DNA from: Desulfobacteraceae bacterium Eth-SRB1
Lineage (GTDB): Bacteria > Desulfobacterota > Desulfobacteria > Desulfobacterales > ETH-SRB1
Length of the DNA stretch: 64,000 bases
NCBI GenBank assembly: GCA_004193555.1
Contig: RPGP01000001.1
Location: forward strand, 918,790-982,789
Reading direction: 5' to 3'
Of this stretch, positions 7,782 to 16,663 are shown piece after piece; position 1 is the stretch's first letter, and each line of letters starts with the position of its first letter. A program made the position numbers and the translations under genes. The notes under the pieces are model-generated. The model did no database searches. It was not told the DNA's origin and saw nothing but the letters and a program-made list of their open reading frames with translations.

Positions 7782-8162
7782 ATGGCTAAGAGAATATTTA
7801 TCAGTTTTGCGATAGAGGATAAGACTTTGCGAGATTTTTTGGTGGGGCAAGCTAAAAACGAGAAATCCCCTTTTGAATTCGTCGATATGTCAGTGAAAAA
7901 ACCGTGGGATTCTGCTTGGAAAACAAATTGCAGACGGAAAATTAAGGGGTGTAATGGTGTTTTGATAATTGTGACAAAGAACACCAAGAATGCAGACGGT
8001 CAGTTGTGGGAAGTTAAATGTGCAAAAGACGAGGGAATTCCTCGTCGTGGCATCTGGGGCTATTCTGATGATAAGCCAAGTAGATTACCATCCGAATTAG
8101 ATGGCGTGAGAATTGTTAACTGGACATGGAACAATATAAAAAACTGGATCGACTCACTGTAA
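7782..8162 (+). CDS. ThsB-like TIR-domain protein, probable antiphage sensor
   Basis: 126 residues forming a single TIR-like domain of the Thoeris ThsB type: MAKRIFISFAIEDKTLRDFL, a central strand GVLIIVTKNTKNADGQLWEV and a C-terminal LDGVRIVNWTWNNIKNWI. ThsB proteins sense infection and make an NAD-derived signal that activates an effector. A textbook ribosome-binding site (AAAGGAGG) precedes the ATG. It is the first gene after the attC site at 7688-7758 and is followed after 37 bp by a TIR-like membrane protein. No ThsA (SIR2-SLOG or Macro-TM) gene is nearby, so the membrane protein is the likely effector. Confidence 0.8.
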   Translation: MAKRIFISFAIEDKTLRDFLVGQAKNEKSPFEFVDMSVKKPWDSAWKTNCRRKIKGCNGVLIIVTKNTKNADGQLWEVKCAKDEGIPRRGIWGYSDDKPSRLPSELDGVRIVNWTWNNIKNWIDSL

Positions 8163-8199
8163 TTTGTTGAATGGTGAAGCCTATCAGCTAATATGAAGA

Positions 8200-9003
8200 A
8201 TGAAGATTTTTGTCATACATAGATTCAAAGACAGAAACGCTGCCAAGATAAGACTGAAGCAGCTTGCAAAGAAATTGTCTTTAGAATTGCAGCCTATATT
8301 TTTGGATAGTTCCGGAGGCGAACAATGGAAAGAAAGTGCAATGAACGCCATAGATGAAGCTGAGGCTGTTATCGTTTTCAATAGGGAGTCATGTGAAGAA
8401 TCAGATAATGCTAAATGGGAAATTGAAAAGGCAAAAGAGGCTGGAAAAGAACTAATCAATATATGCATAAACGTTGACGATGCTGTTTTATCCGATAGAT
8501 TAAAGTCACTTTACAATTTGAATGACGAATTTGAGACCTGTTTTGCTTCAGATAGCAAAGATTATTTCGAGCTATACAAACTGATGTTGGAATCATCAGA
8601 AAGTTTGATTCAAAGAAGACAAAAGACGAATGCCTTTTTTATTACAGTAATTGGTAGTCTCCTTGCTATTGCTGGCCTTTTGGTAAAGACGGGTGCAATC
8701 GATAGTGGGTCATTTGGAATACTGTACGGTTTTTCTGTGGTTGGTCTGCTTCTATGTAATTCTTGGCGGAATCTCATCGATAATTACGGAAAACTCAATA
8801 AGGCAAAATTCGATGTTATTCTGCGCTTAGAAAAAGAGCTGGGGGCACAAATATACTCTGCTGAATGGGTAGCACTTGGGAAAGGAATGAGGCCCAAGAA
8901 ATATAAATCGTTTACTTCTACAGAAAAGAATGTGCCTCTTTATTTCGGTTTATTGATAGTTGCCCTAACATTAATTGCCATAGGTTGGCAAATATGGGGC
9001 TAA
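8200..9003 (+). CDS. TIR-like/RipA-like membrane protein, probable effector
   Basis: 267 residues in two parts. Residues 1-125 look TIR-like: MKIFVIHRFKDRNAAKIRL, FLDSSGGEQWKESAMNAIDE, AEAVIVFNRESCEES, NAKWEIEKAKEAGKELINI. Residues 140-267 have two hydrophobic helices (TNAFFITVIGSLLAIAGLLV, FGILYGFSVVGLLLC), then LNKAKFDVILRLEKELGAQI and AEWVALGKG, and a last helix (YFGLLIVALTLIAIGWQIW). The second half resembles RipA-family octameric membrane proteins. The stop codon is part of the R'' box of the next attC-like site, so the gene ends its cassette. Inference: a signal-gated membrane-damaging effector for the TIR protein upstream. The RipA match is from memory of the family pattern. Confidence 0.72.
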   Translation: MKIFVIHRFKDRNAAKIRLKQLAKKLSLELQPIFLDSSGGEQWKESAMNAIDEAEAVIVFNRESCEESDNAKWEIEKAKEAGKELINICINVDDAVLSDRLKSLYNLNDEFETCFASDSKDYFELYKLMLESSESLIQRRQKTNAFFITVIGSLLAIAGLLVKTGAIDSGSFGILYGFSVVGLLLCNSWRNLIDNYGKLNKAKFDVILRLEKELGAQIYSAEWVALGKGMRPKKYKSFTSTEKNVPLYFGLLIVALTLIAIGWQIWG

Positions 9004-10695: not shown

Positions 10696-12975
10696 TCACC
10701 CATTACAAGCCGCTGCCGCAACCATTGCCTGACCAAGGGAGATGCCACCGTCATTGGCGGAAACCTGTGTGTGAGTAAAAACCTGGAATCCCTTTTCTTC
10801 AAGCTTTTCCATTAACCCGGATAAAATAATCGAATTTTGAAACACTCCACCGCTCAGAGCAATGCGATTAAGGCCGCTTTCTTTTCTTATAACGTCACAT
10901 AATTCTGAAAATAGTTTAATAACAGTAGCATGGAATTTACTGCTGATATCTGAAGGATGGACCCCTTTGCTCATGTCATTGACCACGCCGCATACAATTG
11001 GCTGAAGAAGGATTTTGTGCATATCCCCTGATATCCATTCAAAATCATAGGTTTTATTTGTATTTTTTTCCACTAACATTTCCAGTTCCATGGCGGCCTG
11101 GCCTTCAAAAACAACATAATTCCTGATCCCGATTATCGCCGCTATTCCGTCAAAAAAACGGCCCAGACTTGATGTGGATGGAGAATTTATCTGTTTTGAA
11201 ATCATCTCAACTATAAACCGTATCTTGTTTTCATCAATTTCTTTAAGCACTGGAAGGTCAAGGCTATACAACTCTTCGCCAAAAGCATCATAAAGATACG
11301 AAACAGCCATTCGCCACGGCTCCTTTATTGCCGTCTCGCTTCCGGGCATAGGAACATATGACAGATGAGCTGCGCGTTCGAATCGCTTATCTTCGGAAAT
11401 CAGTATTTCTCCTCCCCATATGCTGCCGTCGGTTCCATAACCTGTGCCGTCAAATGAGAGCCCTATTACCGGACCATCCAGGCGGTTTTCCGCCATACAG
11501 CTTACAATATGTGCGTGGTGATGCTGGACCGGAACTTTTTTAATGTTTTGCTGTTCCAGGGCATAGATAGTGCTCAGATAATCAGGATGAAGATCATGGG
11601 CAACAATCACAGGATCGATATCGAGTATTCGCTTCATATGCCTTATGGTCAACTGATAAAACTCATATGTTTCCTGATTGTCGAGATCGCCGATATGCTG
11701 GCTTATAAAGGCATTATTTCCTTTTGTAAGGCAAATTGTACTTTTTAACCCTCCACCGCAGGCAAGTATTTGAGCAACCTTTTTTTTCAAAAAAACAGGA
11801 ACGGGAATATACCCCCTTGATCGACGTATAAACCTGGTATCACCGGCTGTATATTTTACTATTGAATCATCACTTCGCAGGTAAATATCCCTGTTATGTA
11901 TCAAAAAATAATCCGCAATTTTTGAAAGCCGCTCAAAAGCATCTTCATTGTCAATACAAATCGGCTCTTCACTCATGTTACCACTGGTCATAATTAGGGC
12001 GGTAAAATTGTGGCTCAGCAAAAGATAATGAAGAGGCGTATAGGGAAGCATTACGCCAAAATATCTGTTTCGCGGTGAAACCTGCTTTGAGAGAGAATTG
12101 GGTTCCTTCTTTTTCAATATAACAATGGGACGATGGAACGACTTCAGGAGCTCTTCCTCTTCAGGTTGCACATACGCATATTTACGAATATGTTTAATAT
12201 CGCAGGACATTATTGCAAGAGGTTTTTCCTCGCGATGTTTTCTGCTCCTGAGCGTAGCAACTGCATCATTGTTTGCGGCATCTACTGCGAGATGAAATCC
12301 ACCCAGGCCTTTAATTGCAACAGTATAACCTTGCTTTAAAAGCTCTGCGGTTTTCTCAACAGAATTTCGGGCATCAAGTTTTTTCCCGCTATTATCATAT
12401 AAGGTAACATGAGGACCGCATTCTTTGCAGGCATTGGGCTGTGCATGAAATCTCCTGTTTTCGGGATCATCATATTCATCCTGGCACATTTTGCACATTT
12501 TAAAATGTTTCATCGAGGTTTTTGGACGGTCATAGGGGATATCTGAAATAATGGTATATCTCGGGCCGCAGTTTGTACAGTTTATGAATGGATATTGAAA
12601 GCGACGATCGTCCGGATCGAACAGCTCCCTGAGGCAGTCATCACAAATAGAGACGTCAGGCGAGATAAGGGTCGAACAAGCTGCCTGGCCAATACTTTGC
12701 TCGATGGAAAATTTTTTGAAGCCTTTAACTGTTTCAGGATAAATCGAAGTGTCTGTGATATGGGCTAACGGCGGGCTTTTTTCAGCAAGATCCCGGCAAA
12801 ATGATTCAATATTATCTCTAATTCCTTCTATATGTATAACTACACCAGATGAGGTGTTTGAAACATCACCTTTTATTTCATATTGGCTTGCCAGCTTATA
12901 AACAAATGGCCGAAAACCAACTCCCTGCACTATACCGTTAATATTCAGTTTTTTAGCAACATAATCGTATGTCAT
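10696..12975 (-). CDS. hypF: [NiFe]-hydrogenase maturation carbamoyltransferase HypF
   Basis: HypF converts carbamoyl phosphate to carbamoyl-AMP and carbamoylates HypE, the first step toward the CN ligands of the NiFe site. Domain order is complete: acylphosphatase (GIVQGVGFRPFVYKLA), two zinc fingers (CDDCLRELFDPDDRRF with CTNCGPRY; CKMCQDEYDDPENRRF with CKECGPHV), a YrdC-like domain (AIKGLGGFHLAVDA, LRSRKHREEKPLAIM) and a Kae1-like domain (VQHHHAHIVSCMAENRLDGP, LSGGVFQN). The frame is open to 13026, but ATG 12975 (MTYDYVAKKLNINGIVQGVG) matches the family start and gives 759 residues. hypC and a hydrogenase protease lie just upstream in the same direction. hypA, hypB and hypE are not in the window, and hypD is 26 kb away. 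Confidence 0.95.
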   Translation of the reverse strand: MTYDYVAKKLNINGIVQGVGFRPFVYKLASQYEIKGDVSNTSSGVVIHIEGIRDNIESFCRDLAEKSPPLAHITDTSIYPETVKGFKKFSIEQSIGQAACSTLISPDVSICDDCLRELFDPDDRRFQYPFINCTNCGPRYTIISDIPYDRPKTSMKHFKMCKMCQDEYDDPENRRFHAQPNACKECGPHVTLYDNSGKKLDARNSVEKTAELLKQGYTVAIKGLGGFHLAVDAANNDAVATLRSRKHREEKPLAIMSCDIKHIRKYAYVQPEEEELLKSFHRPIVILKKKEPNSLSKQVSPRNRYFGVMLPYTPLHYLLLSHNFTALIMTSGNMSEEPICIDNEDAFERLSKIADYFLIHNRDIYLRSDDSIVKYTAGDTRFIRRSRGYIPVPVFLKKKVAQILACGGGLKSTICLTKGNNAFISQHIGDLDNQETYEFYQLTIRHMKRILDIDPVIVAHDLHPDYLSTIYALEQQNIKKVPVQHHHAHIVSCMAENRLDGPVIGLSFDGTGYGTDGSIWGGEILISEDKRFERAAHLSYVPMPGSETAIKEPWRMAVSYLYDAFGEELYSLDLPVLKEIDENKIRFIVEMISKQINSPSTSSLGRFFDGIAAIIGIRNYVVFEGQAAMELEMLVEKNTNKTYDFEWISGDMHKILLQPIVCGVVNDMSKGVHPSDISSKFHATVIKLFSELCDVIRKESGLNRIALSGGVFQNSIILSGLMEKLEEKGFQVFTHTQVSANDGGISLGQAMVAAAACNG

Positions 12976-13091
12976 GGCATTCTTGCGGGAGTAATCAGTG
13001 TGTGAACAAAAAGTTCGTTCAAACACGATTTTGGATTGGGATAACGAGATTCAGGGTTTTCGTTCAGGCACTAATTAGCAGCGGTGCGCTG

Positions 13092-13331: not shown

Positions 13332-13823
13332 TCAGTTGCTCCTTTTTTTATAGGAAACTTCCAGACGGTCGAGTTCAGCCAGCACCATGTTTATTACAGG
13401 ATCGATTTTTGTCTGGATTTGCGGGGTCAAGTCAATGCTAACTGAACTAATATCTTCCGGTTCTACGCCAAGTATAACGGTTTCCGGAACCTTATCAAGA
13501 GCCTGACACAGGGTTAATGCTTCAAGAAAATCGATTTGATGAAGAGAATTTTTTGCCCTGATGCGTTCCGGTATCTGATCACCTTCCAGGCGATAGAGAG
13601 ACCCAACCTCTTCTTTATTCCGGATGACATCAACAACGATAAGCTGGTCAGCTTCTGAAATTACACCGAGAAGGCTGATGCCCAGAACACCGCCATCCAC
13701 AATCGAAACATTATCAGGAAACTCATAAAGCTCCTGCAATTTTTCTATAACGTGTATGCCGAAACCTTCATCGCTGCAAAGCATGCAGCCGACGCCTAAG
13801 ATCATAATTCGCTGTGAGTTCAT
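13332..13823 (-). CDS. Hydrogenase maturation endopeptidase, HybD/HyaD type
   Basis: This protease removes the C-terminal tail of the large subunit after nickel insertion. The 163-residue protein has the family start MILGVGCMLCSDEGFGIHVI, the metal-binding SIVDGGVLGISLLG aspartate region, LIVVDVIRNKEEVGSLYRLE and SLHQIDFLEALTLCQ. Its expected substrate is the HydB encoded just upstream, whose tail after DPCIACAVH is 15 residues. It follows hydB after 192 bp that include a strong hairpin. The usual GxGNxLxxDD is GVGCMLCSDE here, a modest deviation. Confidence 0.92.
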   Translation of the reverse strand: MNSQRIMILGVGCMLCSDEGFGIHVIEKLQELYEFPDNVSIVDGGVLGISLLGVISEADQLIVVDVIRNKEEVGSLYRLEGDQIPERIRAKNSLHQIDFLEALTLCQALDKVPETVILGVEPEDISSVSIDLTPQIQTKIDPVINMVLAELDRLEVSYKKRSN

Positions 13824-14015: not shown

Positions 14016-15665
14016 TTATAATATCTTGATCTTATAAACCTGGTTAGAATCAGGATCAATGATATGAACGGCACAGGCTATACAGGGATCAAATGAATGA
14101 ACTGTTCGCAAGACCTCTACCGGACGTTTTGGATCTGCAATCGGTGTTCCGATAAGAGCTTCTTCTACCGGCCCTAACTTGCCTTTTTCACACCTGGGTC
14201 CGAGATTCCAGGTTGAAGGCACAACATATTGATAATTTTTAATCTTTTTATTCTCAATTTTAATCCAGTGACCAAGAGATCCTCTTGCAACGTCATTTAA
14301 GCCCACACCCATGGCGCTGTCAGGCATTGTCCAGGGCTGATAGGTTTTAGTATCACCGCTTTTAATATTTCCAACCAGCTCCATAACCCATCCTTCCATG
14401 GCGTCGCCAATTGCGATTGTCTCAAGGCCCCTCGCTGCTGTTCTGCCAAGAGTGGAAAACAGCGCACCAACAGGAATGCCAAGTTTCTTAAGGGTGCTGT
14501 CAACCACGGCTTTTATATCTTTTTGTCCTTTTGCATAGGCTACAAGCACTCTTGCAAGAGGACCGACCTCGCAGGGTTCGCCTTCATAGCGAGGCGCCTT
14601 GATCCAGGAATATTTTCCACTGCCCGGTCTGTATTTTGGATCTTCCTTAAGAGGTCTGGTTTCGCCCTTATAAGGATGTTTTGGGCTGCCTTTCTCATAC
14701 CAGGAACGGGTAACATGCTCAGTAACCTTATCCTGCTCTGCCATTTTCACGCCGCCAAGATTCTGTTTCATTATCACGCCTCTTGGCATGTAGAGGCTTT
14801 CAGGCTCTTTAGAGCTTAAAGGAAGATCGCCCCAGGCCAGGAAATTACTGGTTCCGCCGATTGCGCCCCAATCCTTATAAAACGAGGCAACAGCCAGTAT
14901 ATCAGGAATATATACATTCTTGACAAATTCCTGAGTCTCTTTCCAGATATACAGGAACTCGGCTATACGATCAGGAGTAAGGTCCTTTACCGATGTTATT
15001 CCTCCGACAACAAGCGACTGTAAATGCGGATTCTTTGCGCCGAATATTGCGTGCATCCTGACAGCCTTGGCTTGCAAACGAAGGGCTTCGATATAGTGCG
15101 CTGAAGCCATCAGGTTTGCCTCGGGCGGCAGTTTATATGCAGGATGTCCCCAGTATGCATTATTCAAGGGGCCAAGCTGGCCGCTGTCAACAAAGGTTTG
15201 AAGGCGCTGCTGAACACTCTTATAATATGCTGAGCCGCCCCATGGAGCATTGCTCACATTTTCGGAAAGAATTGCTGTTTTTTTAGGATCGGCAGATAGT
15301 GCGCTTACAATATCAACCCAGTCCAGTGCATGAAGATGATAAAAATGAACAATGTGATCATGCTGGTACTGTGCGCCATGAAGAAGATTTCTCATTATAC
15401 GTGCATTTTTCGGAATTGTAACGCCAATTGCGTTTTCGACTGCCCTCACCGAGGACAAAGCATGTGTATAAGTTCAGACCCCGCAGGATCGCTGGACAAA
15501 ATGCTGTGCATCCTGTGGATCGCGACCCTTAAGAATAAGTTCTATGCCTCTGAACATCTGGCCTGAACTCCAGGCATTTGTGACTTTGCCTCCTGCCACT
15601 TCTACCTCAATTCGCAGGTGGCCCTCTATTCTGGTAATCGGATCTATTGTAATTCTTTTAGCCAT
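14016..15665 (-). CDS. hydB: [NiFe] hydrogenase large subunit with selenocysteine at residue 64
   Basis: The gene is one 549-residue reading frame interrupted by TGA at 15474-15476. The first part ends RSCGV, then TGA, then [18 protein letters not shown]. The family motif is RxCGxCTxxH, so the TGA replaces the second (bridging) cysteine and should be read as Sec64; Cys61 is the other N-terminal ligand. An 8-bp hairpin with a GGU loop starts about 16 nt after the TGA, as in bacterial SECIS elements. The C-terminal ligands Cys528 and Cys531 in DPCIACAVH are ordinary cysteines, unlike classical NiFeSe enzymes. His534 is the expected cleavage point before a 15-residue tail. It is the periplasmic H2-uptake type (group 1) with the Tat-exported small subunit upstream. 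Automatic annotation would split it at 15474. Confidence 0.93.
15440..15458 (-). promoter_or_regulatory. SECIS-like hairpin for Sec64 of hydB
   Basis: Read on the minus strand, GTCCTC (15456-15451), loop GGT (15450-15448) and GAGGGC (15447-15442) form a six-pair stem with one G-U. It extends by a U-A pair and a U-G pair on the outside. The GGU apical loop is what SelB reads in E. coli fdhF, and it begins 23 nt after the TGA, within the usual bacterial range. It lies in the coding sequence for LSSVRA. Confidence 0.85.
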
Positions 15666-15715: not shown

Positions 15716-16663
15716 CTACATTTCCTCATAAAACGGGCTCATTTTGTCCCAAAAACCAGGTTCGCTGCATCCAATGCAGGGATGTCCTGCTTCAACAGGC
15801 CAGCTTGTGCCGTCATTGAATTTTGCAATTGGGCAATTATTATAAGTTTCCGGTCCTCTGCAACCCATTTTATAAAGGCAGTAGCCCATGGCCGCTTCTT
15901 TTGAGCCGAACTCTTCCACAAACTCACCATTTTCAAAATGTGATCTTCTTGGGCATTGATCGTGAATAGTCTTGCCATAAGCAAAAAGCGGTCTGCCAAG
16001 AGAGTCAAGAGCCGGGAGTTTGCCAAGAAGGAGATAATTAACCACTGTGCCGACAAAATTAATCGGATTTGGAGGACATCCCGGAATGTTTAATGTTTTA
16101 ATTCCAAGGGCATCTCCAACCCCTTTGTATCCGCCTGGATTAGGTTTGGCGGCCTGAACGCCTCCGTATGCGGAACAGGTTCCCAGACATATTACTGCAG
16201 CAGCCTTGGGACAGACATACTTTGCGATATCAAGGAATGTTTTGCCGCCAACTTTCCCGTAACCGCCGTTGTACTTTGTAGCAATAGCGCCCTCAACAAC
16301 ACAGACAAACTTGCCATTATACTTCTCAACTGCATTGTGAAGATTTTCTTCCGCCTGATGACCTGCTGCAACCATAAGGGTTTCATGGTACTCTACTGCG
16401 AGAATCTCAAGAATAAGTTCGTCTGCTCCAGGATACATGGATCTTAAAAATGCTTCCGAGCATCCTGTACATTCAGCAAAATGTAACCAAATGACGGGCG
16501 GACGCTGTTTCGGAGCTGCAAACACCTCTGCTACCTTTGGAACAAATGATGATGAAAGCCCCATGGTAGCTGTGAGGAGGGTACAGTACTTCATGAAGTC
16601 TCTTCTTGAGACCCCTTTCTTCTCCAGCCTTTTATAAAATTCTTTTTCCTTTTCCATTGGCAC
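15716..16663 (-). CDS. hydA: [NiFe] hydrogenase small subunit, Tat-exported
   Basis: 315 residues. The twin-arginine signal SRRDFMKY at 19-26 is followed by a hydrophobic stretch and cleavage near VFAA, so the heterodimer is periplasmic. Fe-S ligands are visible: proximal cluster ECTGCSEAF, then [13 protein letters not shown] and NIPGCPPNP; distal and medial cluster [46 protein letters not shown]. It transfers electrons from the Ni-Fe(Se) site, most likely to a cytochrome c3 such as the one at 34920. It is first in the operon, with 50 bp to hydB. A ribosome-binding site, GGAGG, lies just before the start; ATG at codon 3 is an alternative. Confidence 0.95.

Follow-up and report, generated by a model that had tools for sequence, protein, structure and literature searches.

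The window (the whole stretch of DNA analyzed, 64,000 nucleotides) very probably encodes a periplasmic [NiFe] hydrogenase of standard type in which selenocysteine (Sec) takes the place of the second ligand of the L1 motif, the UGA at codon 64 being decoded by means of a hairpin and the Sec bridging Ni and Fe. The large-subunit gene and its ligand codons are located as follows:

14016-15665, minus strand: hydB-type [NiFe] hydrogenase large subunit, 549 residues with TGA64 read through (PF00374 at E 6.5e-220; top PDB match 1h2a_L at E 1.9e-217).
15474-15476, minus strand: codon 64, an in-frame TGA that aligns with Cys84 of 1h2a_L, the bridging ligand of L1, and is predicted to encode Sec.
15483-15485, minus strand: codon 61, TGC, first L1 Cys (Cys81; terminal Ni ligand), which is TGA in five relatives.
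14082-14084, minus strand: codon 528, TGT, first L2 Cys (Cys546; the Sec position in classical [NiFeSe] enzymes).
14073-14075, minus strand: codon 531, TGT, second Cys of L2 (equivalent to Cys549, which also bridges the metals).

Apart from TGA64, the sole stop in the 549-residue frame at 14016-15665 is the terminal codon 550. The L1 motif of the large subunit reads RSCGV-U-TYTH, where Cys homologues have RSCGVC, and the L2 motif, DPCIACAVH, carries Cys throughout. The preliminary description had placed a TGA at 15474-15476 instead of the second Cys of RxCGxC, and had read the C-terminal DPCIACAVH as all Cys. Both statements hold, the TGA being in frame on the minus strand as codon 64 and codons 528 and 531 both being TGT. 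In a search of solved structures, residues 5-549 aligned with 1h2a_L from D. vulgaris Miyazaki F (E 1.9e-217), with residues 61, 64, 528, and 531 matching residues 81, 84, 546, and 549 of that chain. According to the available part of the source, Ni and Fe are bridged by Cys84 and Cys549 (PMC12117559). Since residue 64 aligns with Cys84, TGA64 is the codon of a Ni-Fe bridging ligand, which agrees with the position first claimed for it. A separate difference from 1h2a_L was seen at residues 459-462 (window about 14280-14291), where the large subunit has VARG versus APRG, that is, Ala for Pro before Arg.

A codon survey of 169 loci, representing 147 distinct homologous genes, revealed TGA at codon 64 in 63 genes and TGC or TGT in 83, with one gene lacking data; all TGA matches among those listed were taken but only part of the non-TGA ones, so these counts do not represent prevalence. 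Such an alignment of relatives had been proposed as a check on the codon, and it returned not only the TGA but also a hairpin that tracks it. Codon 528 was TGC or TGT in 144 of the 147 genes, the remaining three having no data there. Within the aligned stretch, other stops were absent from 146 of the 147 genes; the exception, a distant gene (L017, 44% identical), has two TAG codons immediately after the His of L2, at the point where the mature protein terminates. No further stop was found in the 63 TGA64 genes apart from a TGA at codon 61, which is present in four of them. This pattern goes well past what chance would give. A wider search of the phylum (395 genomes) added at least five further distinct TGA64 genes (L203, L207, L221, L222, and L223). 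Genes of the UxxU form, with TGA at both codons 61 and 64 (9 nt apart), amounted to five sequences from three lineages:

L040 and L044: UxxU genes from Deltaproteobacteria bins.
L063 and L108: UxxU genes from Nitrospirota.
L221: UxxU gene from family f90, in the phylum of the window.

In each of these five genes one hairpin is predicted at SECIS position, within the 40-42 nt that follow codon 64.

The named TGA loci derive from metagenome bins, and TGA is a single base away from TGC and TGT. A sequencing or assembly error or a broken gene, with the TGA as a meaningless truncation, was therefore weighed and appears extremely improbable. Against it stand the recurrence of TGA64 in 63 of 147 genes that have no other stops apart from TGA61, its presence in two single-contig assemblies (G310 and G228, of 6,969,560 and 6,908,045 bases), the low dN/dS downstream of it, and the frozen hairpin described below. 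Specifically, for ten selected close pairs (nine of TGA genes and one of Cys genes), dN/dS ranged from 0 to 0.12 upstream and from 0.025 to 0.11 downstream of codon 64. These low downstream values show that the sequence following the TGA is translated and under constraint. Together, the conservation, the single-contig assemblies, and the signs of purifying selection rule out a broken gene or an error for the family, and confirm, at the level of sequence, that TGA64 is neither an error nor the mark of a dead gene.

The element that would direct Sec insertion lies downstream of the codon:

15440-15458, minus strand: bacterial SECIS-like hairpin of 8 bp, with its GGU loop at 15448-15450.

This hairpin, UUGUCCUC-GGU-GAGGGCAG, forms 8 pairs, with 23 nt between TGA64 and the loop, and occupies exactly the positions at which a GGU-loop hairpin at SECIS distance had been claimed. 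Hairpins and synonymous entropy were compared between 61 TGA genes and 63 Cys genes, all >60% identical to the gene of the window. The 8 stem pairs are formed in 58 of the 61 TGA genes and 7 pairs in the other three; the loop is GGU in 58 and GGC in three, 23 nt from the TGA. Cys genes form at most 7 stem pairs, a number reached by 3 of 63. Codons 71-74 (TCC TCG GTG AGG) showed zero synonymous entropy in the TGA genes (58, 61, 58, and 61 genes counted) and codon 75 showed 0.21, versus 1.5-2.3 bits at codons 71-74 of the 63 Cys genes. The gene-wide means were 1.30 and 1.29 in the TGA and Cys sets, and codons 71-77 were the seven-codon segment of lowest entropy of the gene in the TGA set. The outer stem pair varies (C-G, U-G, U-A, and once C-A), and in one gene (L033) the fourth pair is flipped from U-G to G-U via Ser-to-Ala and Ala-to-Ser changes. 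When read by eye, genes from f90 and Nitrospirota displayed a different stem, with loop CGUGA or CGUGC and G-U at equal distance, and between the stems of these two groups two pairs are altered on both sides.

Among the genes placed on a tree, all 62 rows with TGA carried the hairpin, as did 2 of the 71 with Cys (L183 and L185), by a criterion that was fixed after the TGA genes had been inspected. Across 10 independent contrasts on supported branches, hairpin and TGA went together every time (median p 0.002). Folding energy over the 48 nt after codon 64 did not separate 20 TGA genes (mean -11.9) from 26 Cys genes (-12.2; p 0.89), and the GGU triplet on its own is also common in Cys genes (37 of 63). 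Judged from pairing and synonymous entropy, the hairpin is under selection in TGA genes and has decayed in Cys genes.

The genes selA, selB, selC, and selD, for which the preliminary description had proposed a search, were all found in the genome. Specifically, it holds selA, two selB above the cut-off, and three tRNA-Sec above the gathering score with a UCA anticodon, while its selD contains a TGA of its own, within a UxxK motif, and about 20 nt downstream of this TGA there is a hairpin whose loop is GGA. An in-frame UGA at a conserved site aligned with Cys, a downstream hairpin under selection, and the four sel genes are features expected of a bacterial selenoprotein. SelA exceeded the cut-off in every one of the 62 TGA genomes examined for it (five TGA genes found later are outside this set), in 63 of 68 Cys genomes, and in 1 of 14 controls (E. 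coli). It accompanies TGA without exception but fails to discriminate, since the large majority of Cys genomes also have it. tRNA-Sec exceeded the gathering score in 19 of 20 TGA genomes (among them G010 and G017, apparently one genome) and in 26 of 30 without TGA; in the TGA genome G024 the best match reached 45.9 bits versus a gathering score of 47. This score is not specific, since 5 of 14 control genomes pass it.

We also considered that UGA64 might be read as another residue, whether Trp or Cys through near-cognate read-through or Cys and Sec mixed, the hairpin then doing no more than stall release. Cys is encoded at the site in 83 of 147 genes, and the Sec proposed here is a prediction from sequence. 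Nevertheless, this reading is very unlikely, given that Trp is unable to ligate metals, that the hairpin is SECIS-like in both form and spacing, that the selD TGA of the same genome is likewise followed by a hairpin, and that every TGA genome tested carries SelA. Decoding of UGA64 as Sec is the reading followed here.

Further copies of the decoding genes were observed in genome G000. Locus L195 (contig C40:939500-945000) is a duplicated selB-selC module with two tRNA-Sec of equal score, in which one selB is whole and the other copy is split over two frames. Elsewhere in this genome, a further selB lies at C40:1193695-1195587 and a higher-scoring tRNA-Sec at C1:896596. In several relatives, too, the tRNA-Sec matches fall into two classes of score.

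The large subunit is accompanied by genes for its partner and for hydrogenase maturation:

15716-16663, minus strand: hydrogenase small subunit with a twin-arginine leader, the proximal-cluster motif ECTGC, and, in the stretch for the medial cluster, WPV.
13332-13823, minus strand: HycI-type hydrogenase maturation protease (PF01750).
10696-13026, minus strand: HypF carbamoyltransferase, hydrogenase maturation (PF22521, PF07503, PF17788).

Both subunits display what characterizes group 1 [NiFe] (HynAB-like) enzymes, namely PF00374 with the L1 and L2 motifs in the large subunit, the second L1 ligand being U for C, and an adjoining small-subunit gene whose product has an export leader together with the usual cluster motifs. 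The ECTGC motif, WPV stretch, and leader of the small subunit all recur in 1h2a_S; the first two presumably denote a proximal cluster of ordinary type and a medial cluster of [3Fe-4S] type. HynAB/HydAB of D. vulgaris Miyazaki F (1h2a) aligns nearly end to end with the enzyme of the window in both subunits and shares with it the other three ligand Cys, the cluster motifs, and the twin-arginine leader, but has Cys84 at the L1 bridge where Sec is predicted here. Since the cluster motifs of the small subunit are of the ordinary type, the enzyme looks like a standard [NiFe] enzyme with a selenium bridge rather than HysAB, and is probably oxygen-sensitive.

Membership in HysAB was ruled out, as codon 528 is TGT and the HysA model NF045518 scored 421.5 bits versus a cut-off of 780. 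The best NCBIfam model was NF033181, at 585.5 bits, just below its cut-off of 600. A search of the same genome with P0001, which would overlook hydrogenases of greater divergence, retrieved no Cys-type copy and a single additional site, 26-35% identical. That site is a 450-residue frame without TGA that ends in DPCISCSVH, and by reading it appears to be a group 3-like hydrogenase. Elsewhere in the window, at 7782-9003, two adjacent ORFs were noted whose first residues look TIR-like by reading of the translations.

To our knowledge, natural Sec-containing [NiFe] hydrogenases all place Sec at one terminal L2 ligand. The methanogen enzymes FruA and VhuU and the bacterial FrhA belong to group 3 and have their Sec in the C-terminal motif, not in L1. 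What they share with the enzyme of the window is a Sec in a Ni-Fe hydrogenase motif, in their case UxxC, and the available parts of two selenoproteome reviews, of 2022 and 2026, table FrhA and MvhA/VhuA/VhuU in this form and mention no Sec in L1 (PMC13188914, PMC9312934). HysAB of Desulfovibrio vulgaris Hildenborough and Desulfomicrobium baculatum is likewise a Ni-Fe enzyme of sulfate reducers with one encoded Sec ligand. However, the Sec of HysAB is the terminal L2 ligand (Cys546 equivalent; PMC11212049, available in part), whereas the L2 motif in the window is all Cys and the predicted Sec lies in L1.

No natural L1 Sec was found in the literature on Sec in hydrogenases that we covered, which did not extend to the 2007 Olavius Delta1 selenoproteome, and priority is not certain. 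In that literature, the initial remark that no characterized enzyme was known to have Sec only at this site holds for natural enzymes and falls for engineered ones. In E. coli Hyd-2, each of the four Cys including Cys64 has been swapped singly for Sec, yielding variants that were active but below native, and Sec has also been engineered at the L1 site of Hyd-1, as the available part of that report describes (PMC11212049). The L1 Sec site is therefore new only as a natural one. The C64U variant of Hyd-2 is an active enzyme with Sec at the equivalent L1 position, but it was obtained through laboratory TAG recoding (PMC11212049), whereas the enzyme of the window has a natural UGA and a hairpin conserved in many species. 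In that account of the engineered Hyd-1 and Hyd-2, the marked effects fell on position 546, or on the residue corresponding to it in Hyd-1, and not on 64 (PMC11212049).

The TGA genes probably represent a natural and undescribed class of Ni-Fe-Se hydrogenases with selenium as the Ni-Fe bridge. The class would comprise at least two hairpin contexts (loop GGU/GGC in Desulfobacterales, and CGUGA/CGUGC in Nitrospirota and family f90), as well as UxxU forms with two seleno ligands on Ni, one terminal and one bridging, possibly both under one hairpin. Such hydrogenases would be the natural version of an experiment so far engineered by chemists. The conserved L1 Sec, its close Cys sisters, and the double-Sec forms would provide matched natural pairs for testing selenium ligand by ligand, which bear on catalytic bias, proton transfer, and recovery from oxygen. 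Automatic annotation may cut such genes at the UGA.

In the mechanism that we infer, the hairpin 23 nt past UGA64 would direct SelB and tRNA-Sec to decode this codon in the cell, and the protein would be matured by the HypF and the HycI-type protease encoded in its neighborhood. The Sec selenolate would then sit at the place of Cys84, forming a Ni-Se-Fe bridge that might, as the preliminary description suggested, differ in geometry and affect oxygen tolerance. There it would replace the bridging Cys for which S-oxygenation in the slow Ni-A state has been proposed, a residue that we take to be the equivalent of Cys84, and would thereby ease the reversal of oxidative inactivation. An S-oxygenated bridging Cys in Ni-A has been proposed as the main difference between Ni-A and Ni-B (PMC7324405, available in part). 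Easier recovery from oxidation at precisely this ligand would be the most likely role of Sec64. Its function may be modest, because the engineered effects fell at 546 and all four Hyd-2 variants were below native activity. The cost of selenium would make Cys an acceptable substitute, and this combination of cost and acceptability would explain repeated switches between Sec and Cys.

A quick maximum-likelihood tree was computed for 133 of the 147 proteins with residues 61 and 64 masked; the 14 genes outside it were <48% identical or shorter than 480 residues. Among its 130 inner branches, 61 were well supported. The tree requires at least 17 Sec/Cys changes, versus a mean of 44 with shuffled labels. 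Changes in such number suggest that Cys is tolerated, and UGA insertion is inherently selenium-limited; both points would suit a site that serves mainly as a selenium-dependent expression switch, with little chemical role for Sec. Nonetheless, a UGA would work as a switch anywhere in the gene, yet it was confined to codons 61 and 64, both of which specify metal ligands, and we consider such a switch unlikely and favor Sec64 as a bridging ligand. The near-identity of the hairpin within Desulfobacterales suggests that the Sec codon arose once and was lost many times, or was transferred, rather than arising repeatedly. Most of the Cys genomes tested retain SelA, so losing Sec at codon 64 does not simply mean that Sec decoding was lost. 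Among the columns listed of the 14 most different, the median test showed no significant second-shell co-variation with Sec (p 0.06 for Val67; for Ser463, median p 0.125, range 0.016-0.6). In one gene (L224, genome G581), codons 61 and 64 both encode Cys and yet the hairpin of the TGA relatives is intact, which likely reflects a recent change from Sec to Cys.
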